A stretch of 48,436 bases of DNA, taken from contig JAVHLM010000044.1 in NCBI GenBank assembly GCA_031082125.1, positions 1 to 48,436 of the forward strand. Direction: 5' to 3'. The translations under genes were made by a program, and so were the position numbers. Below the pieces are notes generated by a model. That model was not told the origin of the DNA, searched no databases, and saw only the letters and a program-made list of their open reading frames with translations. Positions 3,729-36,883 of this stretch are shown piece after piece (position 1 is the first letter of the stretch; the number at the start of each line of letters is the position of its first letter). The stretch comes from Candidatus Eremiobacterota bacterium. Its GTDB lineage: Bacteria; Vulcanimicrobiota; CADAWZ01; Ess09-12.

Positions 3729-3868
3729 CTATTCCGACAGCACCGGCACGGGCTCACCGAAGAGCTCCTCATAGACATCGGGGTTATGCTCGAGGCAGAG
3801 CCTCTTCGCCTCATCGGCATCGATCACCTCAGCATGATCCCTCTCCCCCTGCCACTGAGTTCCATGGC
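3729..3868 (-). pseudogene. C-terminal remnant of an unknown gene
   Basis: The frame reads DADEAKRLCLEHNPDVYEEL then FGEPVPVLSE and stops at 3729. No start codon or ribosome site is found, and upstream it runs into antisense pentapeptide-repeat sequence. It ends 9 bp before the start of the 99-residue gene, as an upstream operon partner would. I cannot name the family. Confidence 0.4.
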
Positions 3869-3877
3869 ACACATGGT

Positions 3878-4117
3878 GAAGACCTGACCTATGCGGACCT
3901 GAGCGGTGCGATCCTGACCCGTGCGACCCTGCAATATGTGAGCCTGACCAGTGCGAACCTGTCCAATGCGGACCTGGCCGATGCGGACCTGAGCGGTGCG
4001 AACCTGCAATATGCGATCCTGAGCTACGCGAACCTGAGCGGTGCCATAATGCCTAATGGCCAGCCTTATAATGGACCAGTGCCCGGCCCTCAGGGTTACG
4101 TGCCCACGCAGCTATAA
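3878..4117 (+). pseudogene. Pentapeptide-repeat protein fragment
   Basis: Eighty codons contain about eleven units of the A(D/N)LXX type (YADLS, SNADL, DADLS, GANLQ, YANLS), ending in a proline/glycine-rich tail PVPGPQGYVPTQL and TAA at 4115. Pentapeptide repeats fold into a right-handed beta helix. No start codon with a ribosome site is present in this frame, so only the 3' part of the gene survives. Confidence 0.6.
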
Positions 4118-4296: not shown

Positions 4297-4526
4297 CAAC
4301 TGAAGATATAAGGGGCAGTAAGGGCTCTGGTTCTGCGCGTACAGGATCGGGGTTTTCTGCTCGCTATTCCGCCTTTTTCCTCGCATCGACACACCGCTTC
4401 CCGGAATTCTTCTCTCTTTGCCCCCTTTTCGCCACCCTTCGCCGGAAAATTTCCAGACTTTTCCCGAAATTTCTTGTATAATTTTTCCGGAGGCCGGGGG
4501 GCGCCGAAATCTAAGTTCCTATAAAT
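4297..4526 (+). repeat. Solitary IS91 right end, copy B
   Basis: A 230-bp copy begins exactly at the base corresponding to the transposase stop codon and ends CCTATAAAT. It has no transposase sequence. It separates two minus-strand gene fragments (4112-4296 and 4527-4629). Confidence 0.8.
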
Positions 4527-5075: not shown

Positions 5076-6086
5076 ATGAAGAAGGGCAGGCACCATGAAC
5101 CATCCAGGAAAAAACTAAGAGACAGGGGCTACAAAATGCTCTTCTCCCATCCCGCGATGGTGGAGGACCTCATCAGGTCCTTTGTAAAAGAAGATTTCGT
5201 CAAAGAAATAGATTTCACCACTCTCAAGAAAGTGAATGCCTCCTATGTGTCGGAAGAGCTCCTGGAAAGGCAGACCGATATCATCTGGGAAGTGACCGTC
5301 AAGGGGAGCCCGGCCTATTTCTATATTCTGATCGAGTTCCAGTCAACAGTCCATAGATTTATGGCGCTTAGGATTCTCACTTACATTCTGCTGTTCTATC
5401 AGGACCTCATAAGGGCAAGGAAAGTGAAGCGGGGCATGCTGCCGTCAGTTTTTCCGGTGCTGCTCTATAGTGGAGGAAGGGCGTGGAATGCCCCTTTGAA
5501 CATAAGAGAGCTGATTGAGAGGCCCTTTGGAACCATGAGCCCTTATACGCCGGTCTTTTCCTATTACAAGATTGCGGAGAATGAGTTCTCCAGGGAAAGC
5601 CTCAGGGAGCTTGACACCATAGTCTCCCAGTTATTTCTGATTGAGACGGCAGGCGAAAGAGAATTGGCGAAAATCATAAGAGATGCTATAATAGTATTCA
5701 GGAGAGAGGTAAACCCGGAGCTGCAGAGGGACTTCGGGATATGGCTGAGAAGAATGCTTCGCGCGAAAAATATCACTTTGGATACCGCTGCGCTGGAAGA
5801 AAGGTCGGTGAGCCCCATGCTTGAGGAAACCCTGGAGAAGTATGAGAAGAAGCTGCTCAGGAAGGGAAAGCGCGAAGGCATGCGTGAAGGCATGCGCGAA
5901 GGCATGCGTGAAGGCATGCGCGAAGGCATGCGTGAAGGCAAACTTGAAGGCTTGCGCGAAGGGTTGCTGAAAGGCAAGCTCGAAGACGCGAGGATGATGA
6001 AGCAAAAAGGGTTCGACAGTGAGACCATCTCAGAAATTACCGGCCTCTCAAGGGAACAGATAGAGAAATTGCCTAGCTCCTCTTAG
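5076..6086 (+). CDS. Rpn-family recombination-promoting nuclease / putative transposase
   Basis: The 336-residue product belongs to the PD-(D/E)XK Rpn/Transposase_31 family, whose members are DNA endonucleases linked to recombination. The N-terminus has RDRGYKMLFSHPAMVEDLIR. The likely catalytic residues are D68 (RQTDIIWEV) and E87/Q89 (YILIEFQS), followed by MALRILTYILLFYQ. The C-terminal part has an RKGKREGM(REGM) tandem tract around residues 265-290, then a tail FDSETISEITGLSREQIEKL that predicts recognition of a small helix bundle. The ATG at 5076 has only a weak ribosome site. It appears intact, unlike its neighbours. Such genes are often multicopy, and a second tail of this type closes the window. 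Confidence 0.85.
   Translation: MKKGRHHEPSRKKLRDRGYKMLFSHPAMVEDLIRSFVKEDFVKEIDFTTLKKVNASYVSEELLERQTDIIWEVTVKGSPAYFYILIEFQSTVHRFMALRILTYILLFYQDLIRARKVKRGMLPSVFPVLLYSGGRAWNAPLNIRELIERPFGTMSPYTPVFSYYKIAENEFSRESLRELDTIVSQLFLIETAGERELAKIIRDAIIVFRREVNPELQRDFGIWLRRMLRAKNITLDTAALEERSVSPMLEETLEKYEKKLLRKGKREGMREGMREGMREGMREGMREGKLEGLREGLLKGKLEDARMMKQKGFDSETISEITGLSREQIEKLPSSS
5870..5941 (+). repeat. 12-bp coding tandem repeat in the Rpn gene
   Basis: Six units encode REGM/MREG. The arginine codon alternates CGC and CGT, making a 24-bp higher-order unit. The tract keeps frame for any unit number, as expected for a length-variable charged linker. Confidence 0.75.
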
Positions 6087-6137: not shown

Positions 6138-6310
6138 CCTTCTCACTCCCCCCCTGGGGCAGCGTGATGATGAAGGCGGCGCCGGTGCCGCCGCTCTCGG
6201 CGCATCCCACCTGGATCAGAGGCTTCACGCCCGGCAGGGCGTGGCTGAGGGAGTTGTGGAAGAGGTTCGAGAAGACCTGCTCGAAGGCCTGGGGGTCGCA
6301 GAGGACAGGG
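6124..6310 (-). pseudogene. C-terminal scrap of a sensor histidine kinase
   Basis: The minus frame reads DPQAFEQVFSNLFHNSLSHA then IQVGC and GTGAAFIITLPQGG. This is the N-box (NLFHNSLSHA) and the end of a GHKL ATPase domain. The upstream part is replaced by a diverged IS91 right end at about 6311, so only the last 60 or so codons remain. Confidence 0.6.
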
Positions 6311-6480
6311 GTATTTCGCTCCCGCTCCCGCCTTTTTCCTCGCACCGACGCACCGCTTACTGGAATTTTGTAGATTTTCGGCCTCCTTCACTGCTCTTCA
6401 CCAGGAACTATTTGGACTTTCCGGAAATTTACTGTATACTATCTTCGGAGGCCGGGGGGCGCCGGGATCTGAGTTCCTCT
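6311..6480 (+). repeat. Diverged IS91 right end, copy E
   Basis: Similarity to the 230-bp right end is clear at CGCCTTTTTCCTCGCA and at CGGAGGCCGGGGGGCGCCG, with many substitutions between. It ends ATCTGAGTTCCT and then departs from the other copies. It is an older or related element. Confidence 0.6.
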
Positions 6481-6621: not shown

Positions 6622-9600
6622 TCATTTCTTCGGCACATATATTACACGGCATTTCTTTGCCAGCCTGGTTTTGCTTGATTTGCCAGGTTCTGGCGGGTAA
6701 AACATATCGAGTCCCCTTCCAAGAATGACTTGCCATTTTTCCGTTTCAATCGAGCGATCATGCAGAGTCTGCTCAAAAGTAAAGGACAATTCTATTCCTC
6801 TATCCTTCAGCTTTTTCTTCAACTCTGAGAGCCGTTTTCGCGATTCCTTTTCTTGTGAAAGACCATAGGGCTCCTGTGATTCATAGGTCGTAATTAATTC
6901 CACCATAGCATTGTGTGGTAGTTTGACTGAGCTGAGCAGATCCTCGAGATTTCTTACTTGATAATCCAGTCTGATATAGGGATCCAAGATCTTTATCCAC
7001 TTTTCATTATTGAGAATAGGGCCAAACAGCTTTAGATAAGTGATATCGGCTTGGCTGTCCTCAATATCAGTTATATTAAAGCCTTCCCTTTTCGAAGCGG
7101 CAAAGGATGAGGCTGATATTGGCTTAGCTCCGCTCATGCATTTCTCTATAAGCTCAATAGCTCTTTTTACGACGACTGAATCAAGATTATAAACAAGACG
7201 CTTTGATTCCAGGGCAGATGATAAGACAAGAGGCTCGCCTATTGAAGCTATTGACATTTTATCATCCCCACCTTTATCGATTGCCAGTTGCCATCCAGTT
7301 GAGGGCGCTTGCGATATTTTGTGGAGCTTGACTCCTGATTCAATGAGATCGAGAAGACCCTTCACGGATAATAGATTATGCTCATTTATCTCGGAGAGTT
7401 CGGGAATCTGGCTGATTCCTATTTCAATTTTGATTCCGGCCATTCTTTCTTTTTTGAGTTCAGCAAGGAATCTCGCCCATGGTATACCATGGGGGACCTC
7501 GTCATTATCGCATGTACCTGCTATCGCAATTATCCTTTGGGAATTTCGGAGCTTTCTTTGAAGCCACTCTGTATTGTGTGCTCCGCAAAACCTAGATGTA
7601 CCTTTTTCGTATTCAACAAGCAGGCCTTTTTCCTGTGCGCTATTGAGGATTATGAGGTGATCAAGATAGGGTTGTATGAGCCTTTTATCGAGCATGATAT
7701 GCTCTGATTGATTTTCATAAGAGCGGAGGCACTTATAACAGGATTTCTCGCATTGACAACCATCGAGAATGCTCCGCGCTGTTGTAAGTATATTTAGAGC
7801 TTGTGCCGCTATTTTACGCACATATCCAGCTCCACCAGGGACATTATCATAAAGAACAATTTGAAAATTCACAATTCCGTCTATTTTGATACTTCTTACG
7901 AAACCACTGAGCTCACCCGATTCAGCGCCAACTACTGCCTGAGCGGCTTCAATCAATGCCGCCTTAAGGCTTGTGAAAAACTCAGGTGCTTTTATCTCAC
8001 AACCTGGAAGATTTATCAAAAGAACATCTGTCTGAAATTGATGCCCGAGGTGAAATCTGGTCGAGTTACCACCACAGCTTTGCCTTCTATTATGGAGAAT
8101 TCTGTGTTCTTCAAAGGAGGATTTGTTGGTAGGCGCATGCCAGTGTCCGCAGGATCGGCATAACATAAAACCGCTTCCCCCTTCCTCAGAAAGGCCGTTG
8201 TTGACAATAAGGATTTCTCCTTTTCTCATATACTCAAATTCAACGCCCTCAGCTTGGAATTTCTGCATATCCTCGGAAGTACCTGCAAGATAAGTATTCG
8301 AAACATAAAAGGCTCTCTTTCGATATTCTTCATCTGAACCGATGGCTTCTGCTCTCTCTGCCATAAATGAAGTGGCAAAAAGAATTGGAAAATCCCTGGG
8401 TAAAAGAGCTTCTTTGCAGAAAGGGCAGACAGTTTTTGAGAGATCGAAAGAAAGAAAATCGCATGTTTCACATTTTCGATATACTTTATTGAGATCGGGG
8501 ACTGGGGCACGATGAAAGTCGAGCCCGATAACCTGGTATTTCTTTCCATCCATATAGATCGTATTCCCGGGGGCGTATTCATAGATAGCCATCTCGAGGC
8601 TGCGAAAAATAGGTTTCTTGACCTCATCTTTGGCAACGAGCCGTCCTGAATCTGAGGGGAATGCATAGCTGGGCAGAAAGCCTGTGTTTGATAGGTATGA
8701 AAGGGGATAATTCCCGTCAATCTGATCGAGCAACTTGTAGAGATGTGCCTCCCGCTCAGAAAGCTCTGCCGCTCGCTTCGGATTTGTTCGACTGATTCTT
8801 ACCTTTTCAGTGCTCAGCTCAAGTACATCCGAAAATAACGCCTCCCTCTCCAGAATCCAGGGGCTAAATGCCTCAATGAGATGTGAGTAAAAATCATCAA
8901 CCAAGGCACCTATTTCTTTGGCATCAATCCATTGGATGCCCTTTTCCTTTCTATCTTTTTCAAAAGCCTTCATAACAGCATCAATAATTTCTTTTCTTCG
9001 AATTTGAACTTCTTTTTCAATCTCCGGAAATGCGAAATCTTTCTCGCTTTCTGAGAGAAGCTGACCGAGTGTATCCTTGAATTGAAAATCAAGTTTTTCA
9101 AGAATGAGAGAATTAATTTGCCGCTTGACAATGCGCTCATTCTCTATTGTAAACTCTGGGGGATCAATTTCTCCCGATATCATATCTGATGGTCTTTCAA
9201 AAAAATATGTATCGTGAGCCCTATCGAGGGCATAGGTATTTATCAGAGAAATGCGCTCTTTTCGGCCTGCTCTCCCGCTTCGCTGAGCATAATTTGCGGG
9301 ACCAGGGGGAACATTTCGCATAAAAACACTTGGCAGATCGCCTATATCCACACCCATCTCCATTGTTGGTGTGCAGACAAGGATATCTGATGCGCCACTT
9401 TTAAAAGATCGTTCTATCTGAATTCTACGTGTACCAGAGAGCTGCGCAGAGTGCTCATTCGATATCATCCGGAAAGGCTCTTTATGCATATATACATCAA
9501 CATAATAATTCATAAGGGGATCTGGTTGGTAATTCTCCAGCCTTCCTGAACAACGCCAGCGCGGACAGATACCACGAACAGAATGACTTGTCACGGAACT

Positions 9601-12522
9601 GCAGTTATTGCATCTAAAAAGCTCATCTGGAATCGTAAGCATTATCCTCTGATGATTGACCATGGTAACCTGACGAGTTGATTTTTCGTTTCCAATCTCA
9701 ACTTTAATGATAAAACCCTGATTATAAAGGAACTCGAGCCAATCTTGAAGTGCTTCAGGTGAGCGCTCCTTGCCAACTACCTTAGCCGCAAGATTGAGAA
9801 GCGCTGTCTCTCCTCCTGTAATTGAGAGAAATCCAAATACTCTATAAGGTTGTTTTTCACTGCTTATTTTATGATTGCAATAACCTACTGGCAGATTTGA
9901 TCGGCCGAAAAGATTTCTTTCGTTTTCCATGGGTCTTAGCAACATTGGATGTGAAAGAGCTCTTTTGAAACGCATTTCATCCAATATCAAGGCAAGGAGA
10001 TTATGGAGCTCTACACCATTAAGTTTCCATTTTCTTTGTAGATCTTCCGCGATGTGGGCTAATTCCTTCAACATCTCTTTCTCTTTATAGTAGAGGACAG
10101 CGATTAAGCCAATACCCTCAAGACTGGTCCTTCGAGAGCCGGGTTTTGCGATTTCGGAAAGCATGACCATTTGAATATCGGCATGTTCAACAGCCACATC
10201 ATCCGGATTTTCAGGTTTGCGAATGTTATAGCTGAGCTGCCCCCCTTCTTCTCGCGTGGGCTTGGGACAATAGATTTGATATTGGAGCCTTCGTTTATAA
10301 AGCAGTTGCTGCAAGCGCTCGAAGCTTACAGGATCTCCATTGTGAGCGTCCAATTCATTGCGCAATACCTGGTATATAAGTTGCCGGCCGGTAAAATGAG
10401 AATGCTTGAGATTGAGATATGCAGCTTGAAAGGCCGTATCCTGTCGATTATCGCAGAAGATCAATAATTTTCGCTGTTCAGAAGTGAGATGTTGAAATAT
10501 ACCCTCCACCAAAATGTTGATACCAACCATTGTTGCAGAACGAAGTGGTGTCACAACTTCCATTCCCCCGCCATATATGCCTTCGCATGCGGGGCACTTA
10601 TGTATTGGGCCAAAATAGGCTTTGGGTTTCCTAATTACCCGCGCGCTTTCTGCGACGGCATTGTTATTCCTGCAATCACATGCTACAGGGCCTTTCACAT
10701 AGAGCGTTCCACAGCAGGGACAATAGTGTGCTGTGAACTCTGAGGTATCTTCATCAGCCTGGTTATCACCTTCATCTTCTCCAGTCTCTTTTCTTTCATA
10801 GAGATGATAGGTTAAATGAATGGGCTTGCTATCTTTTTGCTGTTCATCAACTAATTTCACCCATAACGGGATTACATTTGATTTTTTCGATTTTCTGCCT
10901 TTTCTTGTGGGTTCCTGATCCTCGACCAGCTCTTCTCCAGGAAAGGCGCGATAAAAGTCCTGACCACAGTTCCTGCAGACTTCAAGGGGGAGACAACGGG
11001 CACCACAGTTTGAACAGCTATCTACATATTCAGTGTGAAGCATTGCACATTCATCATTGGTGCAACGATATATTCCCTGGATTCCTCTCCAGAAAATATG
11101 AACTTTGGGTCTGATAAGAGGTTGGCCATTAAATTTTGCTTTTGCGCCCAGCAGCAGATATGCTTCGACTTCTCTCCTGAGATAGGTTTCGTCATTGCCA
11201 GCTCTCATTGCATCGTCTGCAAATCTTTTTTCCTGTTGATATCCTTTATCAATGTTCCCTCCGGTGCCAAGAAATCTTGTCACTTCATCGAGAGAGCGTG
11301 GTTCATTGAGCAGTTCTTGAATTGAATGAAAGAGCATATTATCTGCGAGTATTCTTCCCAGAAATTCAGCCGGCGCATCAATGCCTTTCTTGTCGGTTGT
11401 CTCCATGGCGGTCAGTACGACTGAATCAGGTGCGATATAGTCCATGCAAAAGTCATATACTAGATCGATATTTGAAAGATCGCGAAGCTTGCGAATATCC
11501 TCTTCTTCTATTGCCGGTGCGGGCGGCATATATGGCTGAGTTGGTTGCTGAAGTGCCTGGTATTGTTCGATACATATATGTCCCGGCAAGAACAATTCGC
11601 CAAACAATTCTGATGCAAAATCTGCCACTGGTTGAGAATCTTTGCCTTTTACTGTTGCGCTTGTGCCGATGCACAGCAGCTTTCCTTCAATTTTATTTAC
11701 ATGCTCTTTAAGCCTGCGTATGAGACAGGCCACTTCAATACCCCTGGCCCCCTGGTAAGTGTGGATTTCATCGAGAACAAGAAAGCGTAGTCTCTCATCA
11801 AAGAGCACCCTGTCTAATTTCCTCAGTAGCAAATATTCCAGCATCGAGTAGTTCGTCATCAGAATGTTGGGTAGTGTCTTCGCATTCCTTATATCCTTGC
11901 GATACCATATCGCCTCTTCGCACAATCCCTGGGGTCGTCTTTCTTTATTGTGCCTATCGGCATCAGATTCGTCTTCCGGTGTGTCGCCTGTATAGCGGGC
12001 GAGTGTCACTTGAGTGCCAGCAAGATATCGTGTAAAGCGTTCGTATTGATCATTTGCAAGTGCATTCATGGGGTAGAGGATCAAAGCTTTGATGCCAGGG
12101 CCTGGATTCTGCAGGCAATAATTCAGTATGGGAAGGAAAAATGCTTCTGTCTTTCCTGAGCCTGTACCGCTGGAAATTATAGTATTGTTTCCTGCCAATA
12201 TCTGTTCTATGGCGGTCTGTTGATGTGAGTAGAGCACCCATTCACCAAATGGAGGGTATTTCTCGCCTTTCTCATCAACATATGAGCTTGCCTCAAGGAG
12301 CTTCTTATTGAGGTCGAGTTTCTTCTGCTGTTTGGCTAAGCTTTCACCGGCGAGCTCATAGGGCCGCTGTAACGATAAATAGGGACCGCGCCAGAGAAGA
12401 TTTTCCTGATCGATAAGTGAATGCAGATCTTCGCGTAGCTTAACATCTGCCACGGGGAATGCTGTCTTGATATAGTTCTTGTAATTTGCCTTTACGCGCT
12501 CGACGATTTCTAGAGGTTGCAT
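6622..12522 (-). CDS. DISARM/Druantia-like giant DEAD helicase with DUF1998 and MITD1-like C-terminal domain
   Basis: This is a 1966-residue superfamily-2 helicase. The ATP-binding loop is GTGSGKT (119-125), motif II is DEIH (251-254), motif III is SAT (288-290) and motif VI is QRSGRAGR (1080-1087). Cysteine clusters (CRNCGQDF type) lie between the RecA lobes. The DUF1998 end has four cysteines at 1589, 1591, 1595 and 1598 (CQCEKSCYKCLRSY). This combination is known from YprA/MrfA-type helicases, from Druantia DruE and, as two proteins, from DISARM DrmA and DrmB. Residues about 1827-1945 look like the phospholipase-D-like C-terminus of MITD1 (HDRSI, then ILGRGLDMF). The ATG at 12522 follows GCGAGG. 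It is the last gene of the operon, 33 bp after the methylase. A role in phage DNA recognition or translocation is inferred from relatives. Confidence 0.85.
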   Translation of the reverse strand: MQPLEIVERVKANYKNYIKTAFPVADVKLREDLHSLIDQENLLWRGPYLSLQRPYELAGESLAKQQKKLDLNKKLLEASSYVDEKGEKYPPFGEWVLYSHQQTAIEQILAGNNTIISSGTGSGKTEAFFLPILNYCLQNPGPGIKALILYPMNALANDQYERFTRYLAGTQVTLARYTGDTPEDESDADRHNKERRPQGLCEEAIWYRKDIRNAKTLPNILMTNYSMLEYLLLRKLDRVLFDERLRFLVLDEIHTYQGARGIEVACLIRRLKEHVNKIEGKLLCIGTSATVKGKDSQPVADFASELFGELFLPGHICIEQYQALQQPTQPYMPPAPAIEEEDIRKLRDLSNIDLVYDFCMDYIAPDSVVLTAMETTDKKGIDAPAEFLGRILADNMLFHSIQELLNEPRSLDEVTRFLGTGGNIDKGYQQEKRFADDAMRAGNDETYLRREVEAYLLLGAKAKFNGQPLIRPKVHIFWRGIQGIYRCTNDECAMLHTEYVDSCSNCGARCLPLEVCRNCGQDFYRAFPGEELVEDQEPTRKGRKSKKSNVIPLWVKLVDEQQKDSKPIHLTYHLYERKETGEDEGDNQADEDTSEFTAHYCPCCGTLYVKGPVACDCRNNNAVAESARVIRKPKAYFGPIHKCPACEGIYGGGMEVVTPLRSATMVGINILVEGIFQHLTSEQRKLLIFCDNRQDTAFQAAYLNLKHSHFTGRQLIYQVLRNELDAHNGDPVSFERLQQLLYKRRLQYQIYCPKPTREEGGQLSYNIRKPENPDDVAVEHADIQMVMLSEIAKPGSRRTSLEGIGLIAVLYYKEKEMLKELAHIAEDLQRKWKLNGVELHNLLALILDEMRFKRALSHPMLLRPMENERNLFGRSNLPVGYCNHKISSEKQPYRVFGFLSITGGETALLNLAAKVVGKERSPEALQDWLEFLYNQGFIIKVEIGNEKSTRQVTMVNHQRIMLTIPDELFRCNNCSSVTSHSVRGICPRWRCSGRLENYQPDPLMNYYVDVYMHKEPFRMISNEHSAQLSGTRRIQIERSFKSGASDILVCTPTMEMGVDIGDLPSVFMRNVPPGPANYAQRSGRAGRKERISLINTYALDRAHDTYFFERPSDMISGEIDPPEFTIENERIVKRQINSLILEKLDFQFKDTLGQLLSESEKDFAFPEIEKEVQIRRKEIIDAVMKAFEKDRKEKGIQWIDAKEIGALVDDFYSHLIEAFSPWILEREALFSDVLELSTEKVRISRTNPKRAAELSEREAHLYKLLDQIDGNYPLSYLSNTGFLPSYAFPSDSGRLVAKDEVKKPIFRSLEMAIYEYAPGNTIYMDGKKYQVIGLDFHRAPVPDLNKVYRKCETCDFLSFDLSKTVCPFCKEALLPRDFPILFATSFMAERAEAIGSDEEYRKRAFYVSNTYLAGTSEDMQKFQAEGVEFEYMRKGEILIVNNGLSEEGGSGFMLCRSCGHWHAPTNKSSFEEHRILHNRRQSCGGNSTRFHLGHQFQTDVLLINLPGCEIKAPEFFTSLKAALIEAAQAVVGAESGELSGFVRSIKIDGIVNFQIVLYDNVPGGAGYVRKIAAQALNILTTARSILDGCQCEKSCYKCLRSYENQSEHIMLDKRLIQPYLDHLIILNSAQEKGLLVEYEKGTSRFCGAHNTEWLQRKLRNSQRIIAIAGTCDNDEVPHGIPWARFLAELKKERMAGIKIEIGISQIPELSEINEHNLLSVKGLLDLIESGVKLHKISQAPSTGWQLAIDKGGDDKMSIASIGEPLVLSSALESKRLVYNLDSVVVKRAIELIEKCMSGAKPISASSFAASKREGFNITDIEDSQADITYLKLFGPILNNEKWIKILDPYIRLDYQVRNLEDLLSSVKLPHNAMVELITTYESQEPYGLSQEKESRKRLSELKKKLKDRGIELSFTFEQTLHDRSIETEKWQVILGRGLDMFYPPEPGKSSKTRLAKKCRVIYVPKK

Positions 12523-12555
12523 ATTTGCCTCGCTGCTATTTTAAGCAATTCCAAT

Positions 12556-15500
12556 TCAATCGATACTATTAATAATCTTTCTCTGTTGAGAGTCTAGATT
12601 AAATATGTCCGCCACCAACTCATCTATTTCACATAATTTTTCTGCCAGATGCTTCTTATTTTTTTGATTGAGTTGGGACTTAACTAGAGCCGCTATTGCA
12701 TCTCTTTGGGAATATGCCAAGTCATATGATACTATAGGAATCGAATATAATTGTTCATGTGTGTACCACGGATAAAGTTGATCGAATATTTGATGCTTGT
12801 TTTTCAAATAGAATGCCATTACATTTGATATAAGTTGACCCAAGTAAAAGAAAAGTTCGGATTCTTTGACCTTCATCTTGGGTTTAGCGATATATAGCGA
12901 TTGATCAAAAACAGTATCGTCGGTGAAAAAAGTTGCAATAATTCTCTTTCCAATTATCTTCCTCAAAACAATCCTTGGTCCATCAAAGAAATCCTTTGTT
13001 CGAGATTCGGCCAACCACTCGCCATAAGAGATATATTCATATGACTCAATATGCGATAACATATCAATATCCTGTCCTTTAAAAAAAGGACGATATGTGT
13101 CATCTAGTTTATTTTTTGAATGATATGAACGTTCCTTCTTATCTCTAGTTGTCTGGGGACCATCGCCAAATTTTGATTTTCCATAACCATCGGTCCGATA
13201 TGCATGTACTCCGCGGTTGGTGAAAAACAGCTCTTTAATTACAATATCAGATTTCTTTTCTATCTGCCGAATTATCCTCTCTGCATCAATGGAATAGACC
13301 GTGGGTATGGTTTTCTTGATATTCGAATCAACCACTTCATATGGGATATTGATCTGCTTAATTATCTCACCAATTGCATTCATTGTTTTTATTAAGAAAT
13401 GATCTTTTATTTGATTATGATCTGTTATTAGGATTGCATTCTCTATTGATGCATCTTTAAATGGTGGTTCTGTAAAAATCGTGATTTCTCTTATTAGTCT
13501 ATTGACCGTTATATGATCGCGAAGATCGAAGAAGTACTTATTTCCCAACCATGAATCCGGGGTGATAATGCTAATCATACCTGTGTGCTTGATTATTGAA
13601 AGTGCTCTCTCAATGAAGTAAACATAATAATCAGTTTGATACTCTCCCAGCTTATATTCACGAAAATAATCTTCATTCTTCTGACCTGCACTATAGAGAT
13701 ATGGCGGATTCCCCACTACAGCATCAAATCCCCCGTTCTTTAATCGCCCTCCTTGCTCATCGTACCATACTTCCGGAAATTCTATTTCCCAATGGAAGAA
13801 CCGGTTTACTCGAGCCACTTTTGAGTGTCTGTCTTTTGCAGTTTTTAAGTCCATTATAATGCCCTCATAATCAAAGCATTTTTCACCGAAATAAGTGGCA
13901 GTCCAGATGTCGGCTATGTTCTTGAAATGAATTTTAGTTGCCTCAACGGAGATTTCAAGAGCCTTTTTGACATTGATATCAGCAGAGGTGACCGTCTCTC
14001 GCCTTGATATACTTATGAGATCCGCCACCATGCTTGGCAACCGTTCTTTGAATGACTTCTCAAAAAAGCTTATCTGATTTTTGGGCATCTGCTTTAAATT
14101 GCGTTTCGATTTCTTATCAATAACTGGCAGTTCTCCGAGATCCTTTATCCAGGCACCGATCAATGAATTACCACATTTAAGATGATGATTCAGGAACGAA
14201 AGAGGGCGTGTAGAATCCATTGTAATGAGCCAAAGAGAAAGCTTAGCCAATTCGACAGCCATTGGATTAATATCGACACCATATACACATCTTTCAGCGA
14301 CCCTTCTCTTGTATTGAGTATATTCCTCATCTGTTATGACGCCATCGGCATCTTTGCCTTCCTTTATAAGAGCCTCGCCATAAGCTTTTGCAAGATATTC
14401 CACGGCTGCTACGAGAAAATGGCCTGAACCCATTGCAGGATCGAGGACTTTTAGCTCAAGAATCTCATCAGATGAGAGAGGCACATCCCTCAAATTATTT
14501 TCCCTGTTTTCTCCCTTAATAAGCGGCCCAAGAGTATTTTCTACCATATATTGAACGATATAATCAGGTGTATAGTAAGAACCAGATGATTTTCTCTTTG
14601 ATTCCTTGCCGCCAAATACCAAAATATATTGGTCTTTTTTCTTGAAATCAGTGACTTTACAGTTTTTTGGTGGTTGTGGATATATATGATTATCGCTATA
14701 AGCTTCAAGCCACAACTGGTAATCATGTTTTTCTTTTTCATCAAGTTCTGAAATATTCTTGAATTCTTCATAACTATTCTTCTTAGAGCTCCGCTTTATA
14801 GAAACTTGATCTTCCTTTGTAAGGCACGCAGTATATTCCAGAATCCCCTCATAGATACTGCCCAAATGACGCACATCAAGATCCCTATAGGTGAATTTCT
14901 TGCGCCCTTGGCCTCGCACCTGGCCGGCTCCAACCCTAGTTCTGCTCAAATGATCTATTGCGAGCGAAAGATAACGGTCGCTCATTGCAAATTGTTCAAT
15001 AAAAGCGTGTTGAGCGGGATCAAATAGACCTCCATTAAAGGCAGTAATGGATGATGAGAATCCGTTGTTGATAAGAGAGAAAAGTTCTTTCAGACGCTCC
15101 CATAATAAATAATTTCCTTCGCCGAAGTATTGTGTGAACTGTGGGCTGTCGATCACGCTGATGATCTCATCTCTGATAGATTCTAAGCTGTAAGAAACTC
15201 TATATACTTCATCATCCATTGGGAGCATATCACGGCTTTCGGCATAAAAAAGAAATAATAATCGATACATGAGCACCAGCGATTCTTGATAAACTGCGTT
15301 CAGTAGCTCATCCGAAGAGAGTAAATGCCTCATTTCGATATCAGGCAAGTATTGTTTCCGCCATTTATCTAGTTCTTGCTTATCTAGCCTCCGCAGGTGA
15401 TTCAAGAATCCGTCACCGAGTCTCTCCAACGCCTTATAGACATTACTCTTCAATTCATCGCCAATTTCTTTTCCGTGACGCTGGCTCTCTTCGAGAATCT

Positions 15501-16809
15501 TATCAAGTCGCGTTTTTCCGTTCATATCTTTTTCATCGAAAGAAGAACCTGAAAAAATGCAGAGCATTATGCGAAAGGCGAGAAGGGCATCATTATCTCC
15601 TTTGAAATCTTTTATCGCCTCAAGATCGATTTCGAAAAAACACCGGGGTTTATGCCCTGTAGTCTTATTCAGAAGCCGTAATTGTCTTCCATTCGTGATT
15701 ATTGCCCATGGGACATCTGATTCTATGAGAGCCTGGTGTACGACATCGATGTATGAGCTTTCTTTATAGTCTTCTCCTCTATATACGGCATCGAGAGTCG
15801 ATGACCAAGGAAGTAACCAAATAAGACAAGCGATGTGCTTCCCTGTGTTCTTCCCATCATAAAAGCTTTGGGTCTTGGAACCACCTTCATTCCAATGAAC
15901 GATGTACGCCGGCGTAAATATCGTCTTCTCAGTTGCAATTTTGATTCCAGAAATAGGTTTTATACCCAGGGCTTCGAAGAGGAACGGCTCGCACCAAATT
16001 CTGCCTGTGTTTGAATAATCTGCATCTTTCAATGAGTCTTCATTCTCCTTGAAGCTTCGTGAGATCTTCTTCATTTTCTCCTTAGATGTCGTCTCCGGAA
16101 ATGAACCCAAGTGAGCTTCTTCAAGAAGGTTTTCGATATAATAGTCTGAAAAGAAACTATCAGAATTGTTCATGAAAGGCCACAAATATGCAATATAGAG
16201 CTCCGTCTTTCCAGTCGTTCCTTGTATCGGATGGCTTATAATAGTCTCAATAGCTGCTTCGGCAAGCATGATAAAATATGGTGATGCTAGTTCAAAAACA
16301 TGTCTTATATGAATACTTGACGGATTATAAGTGGGATGGGATATTACATTACGTAGATCGCGCGCAATAGTAAATACATAATTGCAGGCTTTTTCAGGTG
16401 TAAGGTCCGGTTTCTTCAACCATATTTCTGCGCATTGTTTAGAATCACGGTATTTTTGTAATTCATTATTGTAAAGGACGGTCTTTTCAGCCTCAAGCAG
16501 TCTTTTAAGTAATTCCATAGGCATATTCTTGGCAATTTTTCTTACTGAAGGCGAATCCTCAAGATGGCCAACAAATTTGAAATATGTCTTGTTCTCATCA
16601 TCGCCCTTTACATGGGCACTTAAAGAAAGGTTATAAATGGCGCTCCAGGCGCATCGAAAAACCTCAACTTCGTTTTGTGTTCTATTTGAATTATCTATGT
16701 GATTTATTGCTTTTCGTAGCCCGCTGTACCACCTGCACGAGGCAGGATAATTCCTTGCCTCTTGCTCCCGGCGCATTATAGAATTTAATTTTTCTTTATA
16801 TACTAACAT
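12556..16809 (-). CDS. DrmMI-like N6-adenine DNA methyltransferase with HEPN-like N-terminus
   Basis: The 1417-residue protein is an Eco57I/type IIG-style adenine methylase. SGSYYTPDYIVQYMVENTLG leads into motif I DPAMGSG (790-796), and motif IV is NPPY (1034-1037). The last 350 residues look like a target-recognition region. No PD-(D/E)XK nuclease motif is evident. Residues about 50-190 contain an FxxxW helix (FRCAWSAIYN) and RNVISH (153-158), the Rx4H signature of HEPN ribonuclease-like domains. PWAIITNGRQLRLLNK (367-382) is common in large type IIG-like enzymes. In DISARM the methylase marks host DNA as self. GAGGGGGG precedes the ATG at 16809, 12 bp after the SNF2 gene. Confidence 0.85.
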   Translation of the reverse strand: MLVYKEKLNSIMRREQEARNYPASCRWYSGLRKAINHIDNSNRTQNEVEVFRCAWSAIYNLSLSAHVKGDDENKTYFKFVGHLEDSPSVRKIAKNMPMELLKRLLEAEKTVLYNNELQKYRDSKQCAEIWLKKPDLTPEKACNYVFTIARDLRNVISHPTYNPSSIHIRHVFELASPYFIMLAEAAIETIISHPIQGTTGKTELYIAYLWPFMNNSDSFFSDYYIENLLEEAHLGSFPETTSKEKMKKISRSFKENEDSLKDADYSNTGRIWCEPFLFEALGIKPISGIKIATEKTIFTPAYIVHWNEGGSKTQSFYDGKNTGKHIACLIWLLPWSSTLDAVYRGEDYKESSYIDVVHQALIESDVPWAIITNGRQLRLLNKTTGHKPRCFFEIDLEAIKDFKGDNDALLAFRIMLCIFSGSSFDEKDMNGKTRLDKILEESQRHGKEIGDELKSNVYKALERLGDGFLNHLRRLDKQELDKWRKQYLPDIEMRHLLSSDELLNAVYQESLVLMYRLLFLFYAESRDMLPMDDEVYRVSYSLESIRDEIISVIDSPQFTQYFGEGNYLLWERLKELFSLINNGFSSSITAFNGGLFDPAQHAFIEQFAMSDRYLSLAIDHLSRTRVGAGQVRGQGRKKFTYRDLDVRHLGSIYEGILEYTACLTKEDQVSIKRSSKKNSYEEFKNISELDEKEKHDYQLWLEAYSDNHIYPQPPKNCKVTDFKKKDQYILVFGGKESKRKSSGSYYTPDYIVQYMVENTLGPLIKGENRENNLRDVPLSSDEILELKVLDPAMGSGHFLVAAVEYLAKAYGEALIKEGKDADGVITDEEYTQYKRRVAERCVYGVDINPMAVELAKLSLWLITMDSTRPLSFLNHHLKCGNSLIGAWIKDLGELPVIDKKSKRNLKQMPKNQISFFEKSFKERLPSMVADLISISRRETVTSADINVKKALEISVEATKIHFKNIADIWTATYFGEKCFDYEGIIMDLKTAKDRHSKVARVNRFFHWEIEFPEVWYDEQGGRLKNGGFDAVVGNPPYLYSAGQKNEDYFREYKLGEYQTDYYVYFIERALSIIKHTGMISIITPDSWLGNKYFFDLRDHITVNRLIREITIFTEPPFKDASIENAILITDHNQIKDHFLIKTMNAIGEIIKQINIPYEVVDSNIKKTIPTVYSIDAERIIRQIEKKSDIVIKELFFTNRGVHAYRTDGYGKSKFGDGPQTTRDKKERSYHSKNKLDDTYRPFFKGQDIDMLSHIESYEYISYGEWLAESRTKDFFDGPRIVLRKIIGKRIIATFFTDDTVFDQSLYIAKPKMKVKESELFFYLGQLISNVMAFYLKNKHQIFDQLYPWYTHEQLYSIPIVSYDLAYSQRDAIAALVKSQLNQKNKKHLAEKLCEIDELVADIFNLDSQQRKIINSID

Positions 16810-16821
16810 CTAGTTCCCCCC

Positions 16822-19800
16822 TCATAATGGCATTAATAAAACCATATTAAGCAATTCTGGCGCGGGGAAAGCCCCGAGCCTCATTTGTTCTATCTCTTGT
16901 CGCCTTTCCTTCATCCTCTGCTGATGCATCCTCATCTGATTTTCAATTCGTGTCCTTTGACCTTTCTGCGCAGGTGTCTCAAGATCGGGCAATGACATTT
17001 GCGAACCTATTATCTGGAAAAGAGCATTTTCCAGGAACTGGATGCGCCCTTTATTGAATCGCTCCATATCCTCGATCAACACCTCTATATCCTTGTTTCT
17101 TGATTTCTCAACCCTTTCATAATACTCCAGATACTGTTTTCTTATATGTGCTTCCGCCTGGAGCTGAAGTTCTTTGTTCTTTTCTATAAGATTTTTTAAT
17201 GTCTCGCAATGCGCTTCCTTTTGTGGGGCCGTTCTGTCAAGAAATAGTCTTCGCCCAATTTCTTTCTGCACAGTTCCCTCAATATCAACGAAGACTGGCT
17301 CCAGTTCTTCTCGAATTACTCTGCCTCTCTTATCTTCGAAACGCAGAAGAAAATTAAAAATTATTCCCGGTAGACCCGTATAGTCAGCTCGCAGGCAGGC
17401 AACCTGACTAGAAAGTTCACTGGCTTTTACCCTTCTACAATAATGAACCATTCTTTCCAATAAGGGGTGGCCAAAAGCAAGGAAATCAGGCTGCTGATTC
17501 CTGGACCAATCTTCCGTCGCAATTAACCTGCTAAAGGTGACACGTGGGTATGAAGAGGGAAGCTTATCATCTCTTATGACCGAGGGGACGATAAGCCTGA
17601 AAATATCCCTATTATTCGTTGGATGCAGAATTCTTCCGTTTTTATCTCCTGTTCCATCATCTCCAAAAACCCGCAAGAATAATTTTACAAACTCCTGAAC
17701 ATCTTTAGCGCCGGGAATTGCCTTTTCTGATTGCACAATGGCGCCATTCATTATCCCAATATCTTCGCGGGAGAATTCTCGGCATCCAGATAAGAACTGC
17801 GTCTCCTGAATCTGGCGGGCAATCTCATCCATCTTCTTCAGTTCTTTTTCGGCGATAATGCCGACTGATTTTTCATCGATATTCTTATCTAGAACTCGCA
17901 GGATTAGATCATCAAGTGAGATTCTTTCCAGCACACCAAGAACCTCAGCCATATTTCCCAATTGCCTTCTTATGGTTTCGATCTTTTCCTGAAGAAGCGT
18001 GAAAATCTGTGCTTCTTTTGAGCCGCTGATCATCAGGTTGTATATTTGTGCTATATATTTTTGTCCGTATCTATGGATGCGGCCGATTCTCTGCTCCAAC
18101 CTGTTCGGATTCCAAGGTAGCTCATAATTGATGAGATTATGGCAATATCGCTGCAAATTGAGGCCTTCAGAAGCTGCATCCGTGGCAAGAAGAATCCTTG
18201 TATCTGGCTCATTGAATCGCCTTTCTGCATAAAGCTTTGAACCTAATTCATCTTCATCTTCACCTAGCGGCATCCCTCCATGAATCACCACAATTGCTTC
18301 TTTATTCATAAAGAACTCATTTTCAAGTTTTGCTTTCAAAAAATTTAGCGTGTCTCGATATTCAGTAAATATTATCACTTTATCTGCGGGATTGCTTGTA
18401 AACAATTTCTTTAGAAATTCTCTGAGCCATTTGTACTTGCTGTCCTCACCGGAGTGCATCAATTTCTCTACTTTTTCCAGAAGAGCGCGTAATGTCTTAA
18501 TCTCTTTTGTTCTCTCAGCATGGCTTGCCTGAATGCGCCGGGTTTCTATGTAGCGTTCGACAAATTCTCGGTCTTCTTCTTCCAGGTAGTCTCCGCGCTC
18601 ATAACTCTTAAGCAGCCTCTTGATTTCCTGTTTTTCAGGAGCGTTTGTCTTCGTCGCGGTTCTTTCGTCGACAATGCTATCGATTCGTCGCTTCAATGTC
18701 TCCCTGAGGGCGGCTGGGCTGGAAACCATTCTTTTTTGAACGAGGGTCAGAAGGAATCTGCCTGCATTCAATTCTGACTTGCTGATGCTTTGTTTCCGGC
18801 TCAGTTGAGACCACTCTGTACCCGTAAATGATGAAACCTCATTGTACAACTGCCTCTCATCGTCAGTGAATTCTATTGCCTGTGGATGAGGCTCACGATC
18901 TTTGAATTTCTTCACAAGCTCGCCCTGCTGGTTTATTTCGAAAATTGTCTCTTTCCCTCTGCGGATCATCACCTTATCAATCCTCTGTCGCGCGTCCTGT
19001 CGATCAAGATCACTTGCTTCGGCAAACATAAAGGGGTCGATGAGGTTTAAGATATTGAAAAAGTGCTCTGGGTTACCTGAATGTGGCGTCGCAGTGAGCA
19101 GCAGGAGATTCTCACAACGGTCCTGAAGCTCCTTGGCTAGATCCGCTCTATTTGAATCTGTTGATACATAATGGGCTTCGTCAATAATCATCAAATCCCA
19201 GAGCTTTTCAGTGCTTGTTAGTTTATCAAATACCTTATTGGAATTTTTTTGTGACAACCCGCTTCCTTCATATTGAGGCTTAATCCAGTCAATTGATGTT
19301 ATTATCGAGTCCTTTGCGAGCCAGGGATTCAGATTCTCATCAACCAGCTCCTGTATACCTTCCATTTTGCGACTATTATATATGAAGAAATTCCTGTGGA
19401 AGTGACGCTTCATTTCCTTTTTCCACTGATCCTGGAGGGATGCTGGACATATAATAAGAATGCGGGCACCCCTTCCTCGGGCAGTCAACTCCTGCATAAT
19501 AAGGCCCGCTTCAATAGTCTTGCCCAGACCAACGTCATCGGCGATAAGGAACCGCTGTCGAAGCGATTCCATAACCTTTTTTACTGCTATGAGCTGGTAT
19601 GGCTCTGGAATCATAGTTGAGTTGCTTATACTCAACAATTTGTCATATTCATAAACCAGAGACAATAGCGTTGCATAAGTGAATAGATGATAATGATCGA
19701 TGTGCCCTATCCGTTCAGCGCTAACACCGGACTGTATTGGCTCCATATTTGTATATGGATAAATAAACCCCTGCGGTCTGCCTCCAGAATCAGGATAGAG

Positions 19801-19902
19801 ACGGATCGTGAATGTCCCGTCATTGTTATTAGAAACCGACAGAACTTCCCACTCAATGTTGCGACATCGGACTTTACACCCAACATCAAAGGGTGCGTTC
19901 AT
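16822..19902 (-). CDS. DrmD-like SNF2-family helicase
   Basis: The 1026-residue protein begins with FDVGCKVRCRNIEWEVLSV, typical of DrmD/HepA-like proteins. It has a Walker A DVGLGKT (123-129), DEAH (241-244), TATPHSG (270-276) and a helicase C domain ending QRIGRIHRYGQ (604-614). The C-terminal 300 residues are charged and probably coiled. A SNF2 helicase next to an adenine methylase defines DISARM class 1. The ATG overlaps the stop of the upstream PLD gene (ATGA), so translation is probably coupled. It likely acts as an ATP-driven DNA translocase on incoming DNA, inferred from the family. Confidence 0.85.
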   Translation of the reverse strand: MNAPFDVGCKVRCRNIEWEVLSVSNNNDGTFTIRLYPDSGGRPQGFIYPYTNMEPIQSGVSAERIGHIDHYHLFTYATLLSLVYEYDKLLSISNSTMIPEPYQLIAVKKVMESLRQRFLIADDVGLGKTIEAGLIMQELTARGRGARILIICPASLQDQWKKEMKRHFHRNFFIYNSRKMEGIQELVDENLNPWLAKDSIITSIDWIKPQYEGSGLSQKNSNKVFDKLTSTEKLWDLMIIDEAHYVSTDSNRADLAKELQDRCENLLLLTATPHSGNPEHFFNILNLIDPFMFAEASDLDRQDARQRIDKVMIRRGKETIFEINQQGELVKKFKDREPHPQAIEFTDDERQLYNEVSSFTGTEWSQLSRKQSISKSELNAGRFLLTLVQKRMVSSPAALRETLKRRIDSIVDERTATKTNAPEKQEIKRLLKSYERGDYLEEEDREFVERYIETRRIQASHAERTKEIKTLRALLEKVEKLMHSGEDSKYKWLREFLKKLFTSNPADKVIIFTEYRDTLNFLKAKLENEFFMNKEAIVVIHGGMPLGEDEDELGSKLYAERRFNEPDTRILLATDAASEGLNLQRYCHNLINYELPWNPNRLEQRIGRIHRYGQKYIAQIYNLMISGSKEAQIFTLLQEKIETIRRQLGNMAEVLGVLERISLDDLILRVLDKNIDEKSVGIIAEKELKKMDEIARQIQETQFLSGCREFSREDIGIMNGAIVQSEKAIPGAKDVQEFVKLFLRVFGDDGTGDKNGRILHPTNNRDIFRLIVPSVIRDDKLPSSYPRVTFSRLIATEDWSRNQQPDFLAFGHPLLERMVHYCRRVKASELSSQVACLRADYTGLPGIIFNFLLRFEDKRGRVIREELEPVFVDIEGTVQKEIGRRLFLDRTAPQKEAHCETLKNLIEKNKELQLQAEAHIRKQYLEYYERVEKSRNKDIEVLIEDMERFNKGRIQFLENALFQIIGSQMSLPDLETPAQKGQRTRIENQMRMHQQRMKERRQEIEQMRLGAFPAPELLNMVLLMPL

Positions 19903-20792
19903 TTACTGCACCTTCTTTTGAACATCCTGATCAGCCCATCTGACAGTCTCCTGTCCAATGAAAAACCACATTCCGCTGAAGAACATATGATCCTTAGATT
20001 CAATCCTTTATGGATTTGCATTCCCGAATTGCAGAGAGGGCAAGACAAATCCAGTGATATATCATCTGGGTCATCCGACAAACCACCTGTCGACTCTTTG
20101 TAAGATGATGATCCCGAACATGAGGGGCTATTTTTGCATAGCCACATGGCGATATTTCTATATAATTTCATTTCAGCGCCACATTCAGGACATTCTTGAT
20201 CTGCCAGGGTTTTGATATTCGTGTCATTTTCATTTAAATCTGATGATGCCTTATGAAATACCTCGATCTTTAGATCGGAAAGCAATTCTTTCACGAGATC
20301 TTGACATTCGACACGTAGCATGGATTCTTTTGTTTCGTTATGGGATAATATGTTTAGACTCCCATGCCAGACGATCTTTTCATCAATAAATGCAATTTTT
20401 TCATGCATACCTGCTCGCTCGTGAACGATAGCACCGGCATTCGTAAGACAATTTTCAACTCCTTCGTAGTGGTTTCTAATTTCAAAAGGTTGCTCCGCCT
20501 TTGGCTTTACAAAGATAAGAATCTCGACCTGCCTTGCGGAAAGAGAAGAGAATATCGAATAATATCTACTTGCTCTGCGCTGCGAAAGAAAAGGAGATAG
20601 GATGATTACCTGATTTTCAGAATGAGCTAGATCGTTGATGAAAGATTCATGAAAATCCGCATCAGAACAATGGATCATATCTATTCGTTCTATGATCATA
20701 AATTTGATTGGATTCAGAACTTGGATTGTAGGTGAATAATTCTGTTTATGATGAAGATACCTATCGGTCTTTAATTTATTGATTATGTTCAA
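19899..20792 (-). CDS. DrmC-like phospholipase D-family protein with two zinc ribbons, possibly 5'-truncated
   Basis: The 297-residue protein has one HKD motif: H130, K132, D137, then GSLN (144-147). One HKD copy means it must dimerise for catalysis. VIILSPFLSQRRA before it is usual in PLD nucleases attached to helicases. Two zinc ribbons follow, with cysteines 201/204/219/225 and 251/254/270/275. The frame begins at TTG 20792 with AAGGA four bases upstream. It is open further back to an in-frame stop at 20823-20825, inside the IS91 remnant. A start at ATG 20699 lacks a ribosome site. The original N-terminus may have been lost to the IS91 event. It is first in the defence operon, overlapping the SNF2 gene by four bases. 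Confidence 0.75.
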   Translation of the reverse strand: MNIINKLKTDRYLHHKQNYSPTIQVLNPIKFMIIERIDMIHCSDADFHESFINDLAHSENQVIILSPFLSQRRASRYYSIFSSLSARQVEILIFVKPKAEQPFEIRNHYEGVENCLTNAGAIVHERAGMHEKIAFIDEKIVWHGSLNILSHNETKESMLRVECQDLVKELLSDLKIEVFHKASSDLNENDTNIKTLADQECPECGAEMKLYRNIAMWLCKNSPSCSGSSSYKESTGGLSDDPDDISLDLSCPLCNSGMQIHKGLNLRIICSSAECGFSLDRRLSDGLIRMFKRRCSK

Positions 20793-20946
20793 AAATCCTT
20801 CAATAACCTGAACTTTTCTCGCTCAATACTGTATTACGGGCATTGGTCGAAGAAATCCAGGGGCCTGCGGAAAAAAAGGGAGGAAGCGCTTCCCGGCCAG
20901 GAGTTCACCGTAGCGGAGCCTTCACTTTCCTCAAAAGCCTGCCGCA

Positions 20947-20997
20947 TACCCAGTCGGGCATAAGAAATTCACAAATCAAAGATTTGGAATTTCTACA
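20947..20997 (+). repeat. Two-stem-loop element (51 bp), variant stem
   Basis: The unit TACCCAGTCGGGCATAA has CCC-AGTC-GGG as a mini-hairpin. It is followed by GAAATTC-AC-AAATC / AAA / GATTT-GG-AATTTC and TACA. It is absent from the same place in copy A (about 1595), where the transposase reads straight through, so its insertion boundaries are directly visible. Confidence 0.75.
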
Positions 20998-21103
20998 GGC
21001 GCTGGTCGGCCCTCATAAGAAAAATATGGGAAACAGACCCGCTTGTCAGCAGGGCATGCGGAGGCTCGATGAAAATAATCTCCTTCATTGACGACTTTCC
21101 GGT

Positions 21104-21162
21104 TTACTGACGCACATCATACCCCCAGGTATGATGATGCCGTCAGTAATGCTCTGTGAGTA
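21104..21162 (-). repeat. Two-stem-loop element (long form) in remnant C
   Basis: Identical to 1704-1762 and at the same transposase position, so it was present before the IS91 copies separated. Confidence 0.65.
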
Positions 21163-21265
21163 GGATCAAGAAAATCCTCACCCATCTGAACCTGTGGCAT
21201 ATCCCCTGCAATGAGCGCCCGCCGCCCGGGATGAGCGCGTATTCAGAAGATGAGCAAGCTGAGCG

Positions 21266-21316
21266 TACCCAGGGGGGCATCACTGATGCACAAATCGCAG
21301 ATTTGGCATCAGTACA
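21266..21316 (+). repeat. Two-stem-loop element (51 bp) in the tail of remnant C
   Basis: Identical to 1866-1916 and at the same place in the transposase tail. Confidence 0.65.
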
Positions 21317-21373
21317 TCTGCGCACCAAAGACCCCTATGCCGATTACTATTTCCTCGACGTGGTTCTCGGACG

Positions 21374-21603
21374 CAACTGAAGATATAAGGGGCAGTAAGG
21401 GCTCTGGTTCTGCGCGTACAGGATCGGGGTTTTCTGCTCGCTATTCCGCCTTTTTCCTCGCATCGACACACCGCTTCCCGGAATTCTTCTCTCTTTGCCC
21501 CCTTTTCGCCACCCTTCGCCGGAAAATTTCCAGACTTTTCCCGAAATTTCTTGTATAATTTTTCCGGAGGCCGGGGGGCGCCGAAATCTAAGTTCCTATA
21601 AAT
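21374..21603 (+). repeat. IS91 right end, copy C
   Basis: A 230-bp right end whose last base abuts the stop codon (TGA, 21605-21603) of a minus-strand gene, so that gene's product is not fused to the repeat frame. Confidence 0.8.
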
Positions 21604-30344: not shown

Positions 30345-30685
30345 TTGAAAACCTTTGCTAAAATGTCCCACTCACGAGAGCCTGTCCCATGTATTGTGGC
30401 TGCAATAATCCGGGCATTAATGAGCCTGGATATTCATTATTACTGGAAATACCTTTTGAAATCCTGCTCTGGCTGCTTCACTATTATTTCAGCTTAGGCA
30501 AATCAAACACCTACCGTGCCATGAATATCCCTTTCAGTAGAGGGAATTATTCATCCAGACACTTGAATTACCACACTTTAAAGGCAATGCCCATGAATTA
30601 AGCAGGAATAATTCTTAAGAGAGGACTGGTTCAGCGTACTTCCAGGCTTTTCAGAGCCCAGAGCACCACGCCAGTCCCTCTCATT
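30345..30685. other. Intergenic stretch with a branched inverted repeat
   Basis: I see no gene. The notable structure is 30619-30682: GAGAGGACTGG pairs with CCAGTCCCTCTC (one bulge), enclosing a small GGCT/AGCC hairpin. It ends four bases before IS91 remnant D begins. Confidence 0.4.
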
Positions 30686-30780
30686 AAAATCCTCACCCAT
30701 CTGAACCTGTGGCATATCCCCTGCAATGAGCGCCCGCCGCCCGGGATGAGCGCGTATTCAGAAGATGAGCAAGCTGAGCG

Positions 30781-30882
30781 TACCCAGGGGGGCATCACTG
30801 ATGCACAAATCCTACTCATGTGAGCACTACAAATGCACCAATCAAAGATTGGGCATTTGCACGCAGATTTGGCATCAGTACA
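30781..30882 (+). repeat. Two-stem-loop element interrupted in its hairpin loop by another member
   Basis: The outer unit (30781-30811 plus about 30863-30882) is the same as 1866-1916. The split falls after CACAAATC, in the loop of its large hairpin. Confidence 0.7.
30813..30863 (+). repeat. Nested two-stem-loop element (51 bp)
   Basis: TACTCATGTGAGCACTA (CTC-ATGT-GAG mini-hairpin) is followed by CAAATGC-AC-CAATC / AAA / GATTG-GG-CATTTG. Both flanks are known from the uninterrupted outer copy, so the insert is 51 bp. Confidence 0.75.
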
Positions 30883-31149
30883 TCTGCGCACCAAAGACCC
30901 CTATGCCGATTACTATTTCCTCGACGTGGTTCTCGGACGCAACTGAAGATATAAGGGGCAGTAAGGGCTCTGGTTCTGCGCGTACAGGATCGGGGTTTTC
31001 TGCTCGCTATTCCGCCTTTTTCCTCGCATCGACACACCGCTTCCCGGAATTCTTCTCTCTTTGCCCCCTTTTCGCCACCCTTCGCCGGAAAATTTCCAGA
31101 CTTTTCCCGAAATTTCTTGTATAATTTTTCCGGAGGCCGGGGGGCGCCG

Positions 31150-32797: not shown

Positions 32798-33019
32798 GGC
32801 ATGTCCCTCCTGGAAGCATTCTGCCGTCATTATTCCCTCTTCACAGATTTTTTAGACGCTCCTGCGGGAATCTGTCCCGATTGGCAAAAGTGAGGTTTGG
32901 ACTATGGACATAGAGTGGATAGCAGTAGGACCATACTCTCTTTCACCTTTGAAAAAGTCTTCATTGGTGATCGGATAAGGAAATTCTCTTCTGTTTCATG
33001 AGCTTTTTACAAGGTGAAG
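32798..33019. other. Intergenic stretch, nothing assigned
   Basis: Upstream region of the ankyrin gene and flank of a transposase remnant. I see no gene and no convincing promoter. Confidence 0.3.

Positions 33020-34165: not shown

Positions 34166-36883
<2,718 letters not shown>

Follow-up and report, generated by a model that had tools for sequence, protein, structure and literature searches.

A probable ARMADA-class defence operon whose YprA helicase ends in a PLD-like domain in place of Vsr

Four co-directional genes at positions 6622-20792 of the window (the whole stretch of 48,436 nucleotides from a Candidatus Eremiobacterota bacterium that we analyzed), all on the reverse strand, probably constitute an anti-phage defence system of the ARMADA class. 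We consider it very likely that the operon is an ARMADA operon with the order BrxHII > PglX-type methyltransferase > YprA, which lacks ArmD and in which the nuclease output has been replaced. The class itself is already known; new here are the PLD-like end of the helicase, a PLD gene at the front of the operon and an additional N-terminus on the methyltransferase.

The operon and its ARMADA core

As called from the open reading frames, the operon begins with the PLD gene (20792-19899, reverse strand; 297 aa, with a TTG start and an internal ATG at residue 32), which overlaps the SNF2 gene (19902-16822, reverse strand; 1026 aa) by the 4 bp of an ATGA. The methyltransferase (MTase) gene (16809-12556, reverse strand; 1417 aa) follows after a 12-bp gap, and the YprA helicase gene (12522-6622, reverse strand; 1966 aa) after a further 33 bp. 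The first-pass annotation had described four tightly spaced genes, for a PLD protein, an SNF2 helicase, an Eco57I-type MTase and a 1966-residue helicase, with the PLD gene at the head, and the reading frames and Pfam matches bear out this layout. Pfam assigned PLDc_2 to the first protein, SNF2-rel_dom and Helicase_C to the second, Eco57I, N6_Mtase and TaqI_C to the third, and DEAD, Helicase_C, MZB (DUF1998) and MIT_C to the fourth; upon motif inspection, the catalytic motifs of all four were intact. An RNA feature search of the window found no Rfam matches, tRNA or tRNA integration site, and promoter and terminator scans were uninformative, as their counts equalled those of shuffled sequences.

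Judged by its profile matches, the SNF2 protein (motifs GLGKT, DEAH and QRIGRIHR) is a putative ArmA-like SNF2/RapA helicase or translocase of the BrxHII/DrmD-like kind: its best PADLOC model was BrxHII (516 bits over residues 69-1026), followed by DrmD (420 bits), and its DISARM_DrmD score of 465 bits fell below the NCBIfam cut-off of 610. The MTase (motifs DPAMGSG and NPPY) is likewise a predicted ArmB-like N6-adenine methyltransferase of the Eco57I/PglX/DrmMI type, with matches to Eco57I (2.3e-34), the TaqI_C specificity domain (1.1e-11), DrmMI (394 bits in PADLOC) and BREX_1_MTaseX (1.2e-32). Its N-terminal extension (residues ~1-212; 16171..16809, reverse strand) was missing from five relatives in alignment A3 and gave no significant Pfam match. 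An RNVISH motif at residues 153-158 prompted the idea of a HEPN domain in this region, for which Pfam gave no support and the structure model was unusable (pLDDT 39).

A BrxHII-like protein, a PglX-like MTase and a YprA helicase are the components of ARMADA, a class described as a “missing link” between DISARM and Druantia (Bell et al. 2025, PMC12458937). Its YprA helicase is closest to that of Druantia, its BrxHII-like and PglX-like genes are held in common with DISARM class 1, and the order SNF2 > MTase > YprA characterizes Type II throughout and Type I in part (PMC12458937). The first-pass annotation had taken the operon for an intermediate or hybrid of DISARM and Druantia. The likeness to components of both systems was confirmed, and so was the link between them, but the operon is not a hybrid put together from the two; its composition is exactly the one already published as ARMADA. 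The hybrid reading is explained by the PADLOC scores, in which DruE1 was the best model for the helicase, DrmMI for the MTase, and BrxHII and then DrmD for the SNF2 protein; PADLOC 2.0 profiles thus give a misleading picture of such operons, with labels from DISARM, Druantia and BREX side by side.

Beyond the window, the order SNF2 > MTase > YprA was found at at least 17 other loci of haloarchaea, Acidobacteria, actinomycetes, Proteobacteria and others (L023, L024, L025, L046, L048, L049, L050, L058, L062, L068, L070, L090, L091, L093, L095, L115 and L117). Natrinema and Haloquadratum plasmids are among them, and four fetched loci (L037, L039, L127 and L128) have YprA first. Given the recurrence of this three-gene core and the position of the helicase on the ARMADA side of the trees described below, the operon does not represent a new class.

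Some related loci hold further genes. At L030 (6621-10956; G013), HamA and a large DEAD helicase, a Hachiman-like pair, lie between the MTase and YprA genes of an ARMADA operon, and at L032 (4037-10032; G053), the closest relative, the same position is taken by AAA/SMC-like, DEAD helicase and DprA-like (DNA_processg_A) genes. On a Thermus thermophilus plasmid (L025, 1232-19249), the gene order is brxL > SNF2 > NYN-domain gene > MTase > YprA > 3'-5' exonuclease, i.e., an ARMADA-like set with BREX and nuclease extras. The E. coli plasmid p4M8F (L167, 4818-13270), a conjugative IncHI1B/IncFIB plasmid, encodes an ARMADA II-like YprA together with a UvrD-type helicase. In addition, four cyanobacterial loci (L026, L028, L066 and L073) encode a protein of 790-970 aa (annotated as chromosome-segregation ATPase-like at L026), a protein of ~310 aa and a YprA helicase of 2080-2127 aa with a PLD-like C-terminus, a set that looks like an unnamed Druantia-like system.

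Placement of the helicase among YprA systems

The helicase (motifs GTGSGKT, DEIH and QRSGRAGR) is, from its domains, an ArmC-like member of the YprA family, comprising DEAD, Helicase_C, MZB and a C-terminal PLD-like module. In an 88-row tree built on the helicase core, with the C-terminus removed, it fell within a 39-row clade (SH-aLRT 96) that holds most of the operons bearing MTase and SNF2 genes, with DruH-bearing loci outside this clade. The core tree also placed it outside the MrfA/housekeeping group, in line with its original reading as a defence helicase, and far from the MrfA-like protein of its own genome. Housekeeping MrfA/YprA proteins are short and without conserved defence partners, whereas the window helicase has 1966 aa and does have such partners. 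When genome contigs were scanned for the helicase, an alignment-based scan worked, while single-protein patterns were too specific and gave no matches; the second MZB match of the genome lay in a shorter protein on a different contig. The window has a single YprA gene, unlike haloarchaeal BRIGADE, a 7-deazaguanine synthesis cluster with two YprA helicases.

A 50-row mixture-model tree split ARMADA-context from Druantia-context rows at 100/99, with the window helicase on the ARMADA side as sister to L029/L032 (96/94). Upon addition of E. coli anchors, it grouped with the ARMADA-II-like ArmC at 98/98, with E. coli DruE on the opposite side, and its nearest grouping weakened to 69/75 once these long branches were present. 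The ARMADA-II-like anchor is the E. coli plasmid YprA helicase that is followed by a UvrD-type helicase (L167), and the clade is labelled ARMADA by gene context and this one Type II-like anchor, rather than by the published paper's own labelled sequences. Core identity was low, reaching 36-39% at most, and no close relative was found.

The placement holds at the level of the class, not of Type I versus Type II. With Type I operons of reversed order, the window shares the BrxHII-like protein, the PglX-like MTase, the single-chain YprA, the haloarchaeal/cyanobacterial gene order and the core phylogeny; it differs in its PLD-like/MIT_C rather than Vsr end, its upstream PLD-zinc-ribbon gene and its longer MTase N-terminus. 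With Type II of E. coli, represented by the L167 anchor, it shares the order ArmA > ArmB > ArmC, but its C-terminus differs and it lacks the downstream ArmD (a RelE-GajB/UvrD-like helicase): the sequence past the helicase gene holds an IS91-like end followed by a YhgA-like transposase, and no ArmD.

Could the operon instead be a DISARM class 1 system, with drmA and drmB fused and drmC moved to the front? Like DISARM class 1, it has a DrmMI-like MTase, a DrmD-like SNF2 protein and a PLD gene, whose product matches DrmC very weakly (E=0.0013) and without clear similarity. Yet, as the first-pass annotation had proposed, a single chain replaces separate DrmA and DrmB proteins, the 1966-aa helicase carrying both parts according to Pfam; it scored 53 bits against DrmA and 561 bits against DruE1, no separate DrmB is present, the DrmD score lies under its cut-off, and the core-tree clade is one of single-chain helicases with Vsr ends, which makes the DISARM reading very improbable. 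A Druantia system of a type III-like kind, or a recombinant formed when a DruE helicase acquired DISARM partner genes, would fit the choice of DruE1 and DruE3 as the best PADLOC models; moreover, the Druantia III (DruE-DruH) helicase is also a YprA protein that ends in two PLD-like domains, and loci L118, L083 and L088 also show the DPY...HxR pattern. However, neither DruH nor any other Druantia partner adjoins the operon, MTase and SNF2 partners are present, and the core lies in a separate clade, on the ARMADA side of the 100/99 split. The C-terminus argues in the same direction: a hidden Markov model (HMM) of DruE-III C-termini, built without the window, gave it 16.5 bits, a score like those of unrelated rows, as opposed to 4e-26 with an HMM of two BREX BrxL C-termini. 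On this evidence we give a Druantia origin of the operon hardly any credence, and we likewise rejected direct descent of its C-terminus from Druantia III DruE, an idea that arose from tblastn rows reaching residue 1941 (L083 and L118); a remote common PLD origin of the two ends is possible.

The replaced helicase end and the stand-alone PLD protein

A Vsr end is typical of ARMADA, though not strictly defining, and in alignment A1 the relatives of the window helicase end in a Vsr-like domain that it lacks. A Vsr HMM built from six of these relatives matched 36 of the 39 clade members at E<1e-6 (30 of the 33 outside the build set), the exceptions being the window helicase, with 13 bits only, L039 and L082. 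The first-pass annotation had the protein ending in DUF1998; in fact, MZB spans residues 1519-1599 and is followed by more than 300 aa, including MIT_C (E=1.1e-23) at residues ~1827-1945 (6685..7044, reverse strand; DPYIRLDYQVRNL ... HDRSI ... GRGLD). Besides its match to the two BrxL C-termini, this last domain matched plasmid BrxL proteins (up to 5e-13) and human MITD1 (about 1e-10; 1.3e-10), with which it has the HDR...GRGLD signature in common. The structure modelled for the final 366 residues, with a pLDDT of 64 overall and of 84-92 across most of the last domain, matched the MITD1 fold at a TMt of 0.82; two-domain PLD enzymes and SauUSI gave weak matches. Ahead of the last domain, residues ~1660-1760 resemble a degenerate PLD half in secondary structure only. 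In a survey of the home phylum and the fetched loci, a helicase ending in MIT_C was found in one of 149 home-phylum genomes.

The BrxL-HKD protein of BREX type 1 has the same C-terminal MIT_C-type PLD-like domain with HDR...GRGLD, but there it follows an AAA+ ATPase, in place of an inactive Lon domain. BrxL-HKD carries an HRD variant that is thought to remain active (PMC12839542), and DruE, the 3'-ssDNA helicase-nuclease of Druantia III, has two PLD domains, of which the first is inactive and the second active (PMC13192584). The same signature occurs in MITD1, which makes the activity of the domain fused to the window helicase uncertain; it may be a binding platform only. To our knowledge, MITD1 is not a nuclease.

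The stand-alone PLD protein has a PLDc_2 domain (E=3.6e-8) with a single, intact HKD motif (HEKIAFID...GSLN, residues 130-147) and, by zinc-ribbon profile matches, two C-terminal CxxC zinc ribbons. Apart from the DrmC match, PADLOC returned weak matches to MkoC (9e-12) and MkoB. Such a gene in front of an ARMADA core was unmatched in every collection searched: there was no counterpart at ~100 related fetched loci, and no match to the PLD-double-zinc-ribbon protein in plasmids, other home-phylum genomes or viral contigs. The expectation that the gene set stays together in other genomes thus held for the widespread three-gene core and failed for the PLD gene, and so far the full set of four is known only from the window. 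As no relative stands beside any other ARMADA operon, the gene could be a passenger, an unrelated neighbour that lies upstream of a three-gene ARMADA operon by chance, and a mobile-element end does adjoin it. Against this, the ATGA that it shares with the start of the SNF2 gene implies that the two are coupled in translation, the low-GC block of the operon extends through the PLD gene, and DISARM, Dpd and BRIGADE also come with PLD nucleases (PMC12458937), so that we regard a chance placement as unlikely, if well worth keeping in mind.

Proposed action and genomic setting

The ARMADA II system tested in E. coli needs each of its four genes and protects in a non-abortive way (PMC12458937). The window itself shows gene content and order, intact motifs, the core phylogeny and the exchanged end domain; by analogy with such relatives, we infer a division of labour in the window operon, with methylation-based discrimination of self from non-self and PLD rather than Vsr cutting chemistry. 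The N6-adenine MTase would mark host DNA or read its modification state, the BrxHII-like translocase would scan DNA, and the YprA helicase would load on invader DNA, either 3' single-stranded or replicating, and unwind it. The unwound DNA would then be cut by the C-terminal PLD-like module and the stand-alone zinc-ribbon PLD nuclease, the outcome being direct, non-abortive restriction. Alternatively, as it is uncertain whether the fused MIT_C domain is active, cutting may in fact fall to the stand-alone HKD protein, with the fused domain as its dock.

YprA helicases connect DISARM, Dpd, Druantia and ARMADA. In the window, the helicase core and its two partners remain those of ARMADA, and the nuclease end comes from another superfamily, in common with BREX BrxL. 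We tentatively suggest, at somewhat less than even chances, that the operon is a separate ARMADA subtype, recognized here for the first time, in which the Vsr (PD-(D/E)xK) output was switched to a two-part PLD machine made of a BrxL-type fused domain and a stand-alone zinc-ribbon HKD nuclease. Were this so, the nuclease would be a replaceable module passed among BREX, Druantia and ARMADA; if the system is functional, recognition and unwinding of the invader would be separable from cutting, and the interchangeability of the nuclease would be directly testable.

The operon has a GC content of 38-48%, compared with 50-61% in its flanks, and lies between IS91-like sequences. On its right, a partial IS91-like 3' end (20826..21603, forward strand; 89% identity over the 727-bp query, with repeats D2, D4 and D7) lies 34 bp away from the start codon of the PLD gene, and on its left, just past the helicase stop codon, there is a diverged IS91-like end (6302..6478, forward strand; 75% identity, with repeats D5 and D6). 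The window also holds an IS91-like Y2 transposase gene, tnp (523-1710), and further partial copies of the 3' end at 1477-2203, 4297-4526 and 30686-31149, and ~50 fragments of the genome match the 727-bp end. Rolling-circle transposition may reasonably be supposed to have delivered the operon.

The YhgA-like transposase ORF to the left (5076-6086) contains an in-phase 12-bp repeat at 5853-5996, and in-phase pentapeptide-type 15-bp repeats occur at 3866-4073. To the right, a reverse-strand gene (23511-27500) encodes a protein of 1329 aa whose only recognized domain is a Ser/Thr kinase at the N-terminus (PADLOC PD-T4-6/MkoA-like); we considered and rejected a Mokosh system formed by this kinase and the PLD gene, as the kinase protein has no Pfam helicase domain and lies 2.7 kb away. 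Farther along are genes for two ankyrin-repeat proteins (29073-30371 and 31283-32830, both reverse strand) and a peroxidase-domain protein (34166-36529).
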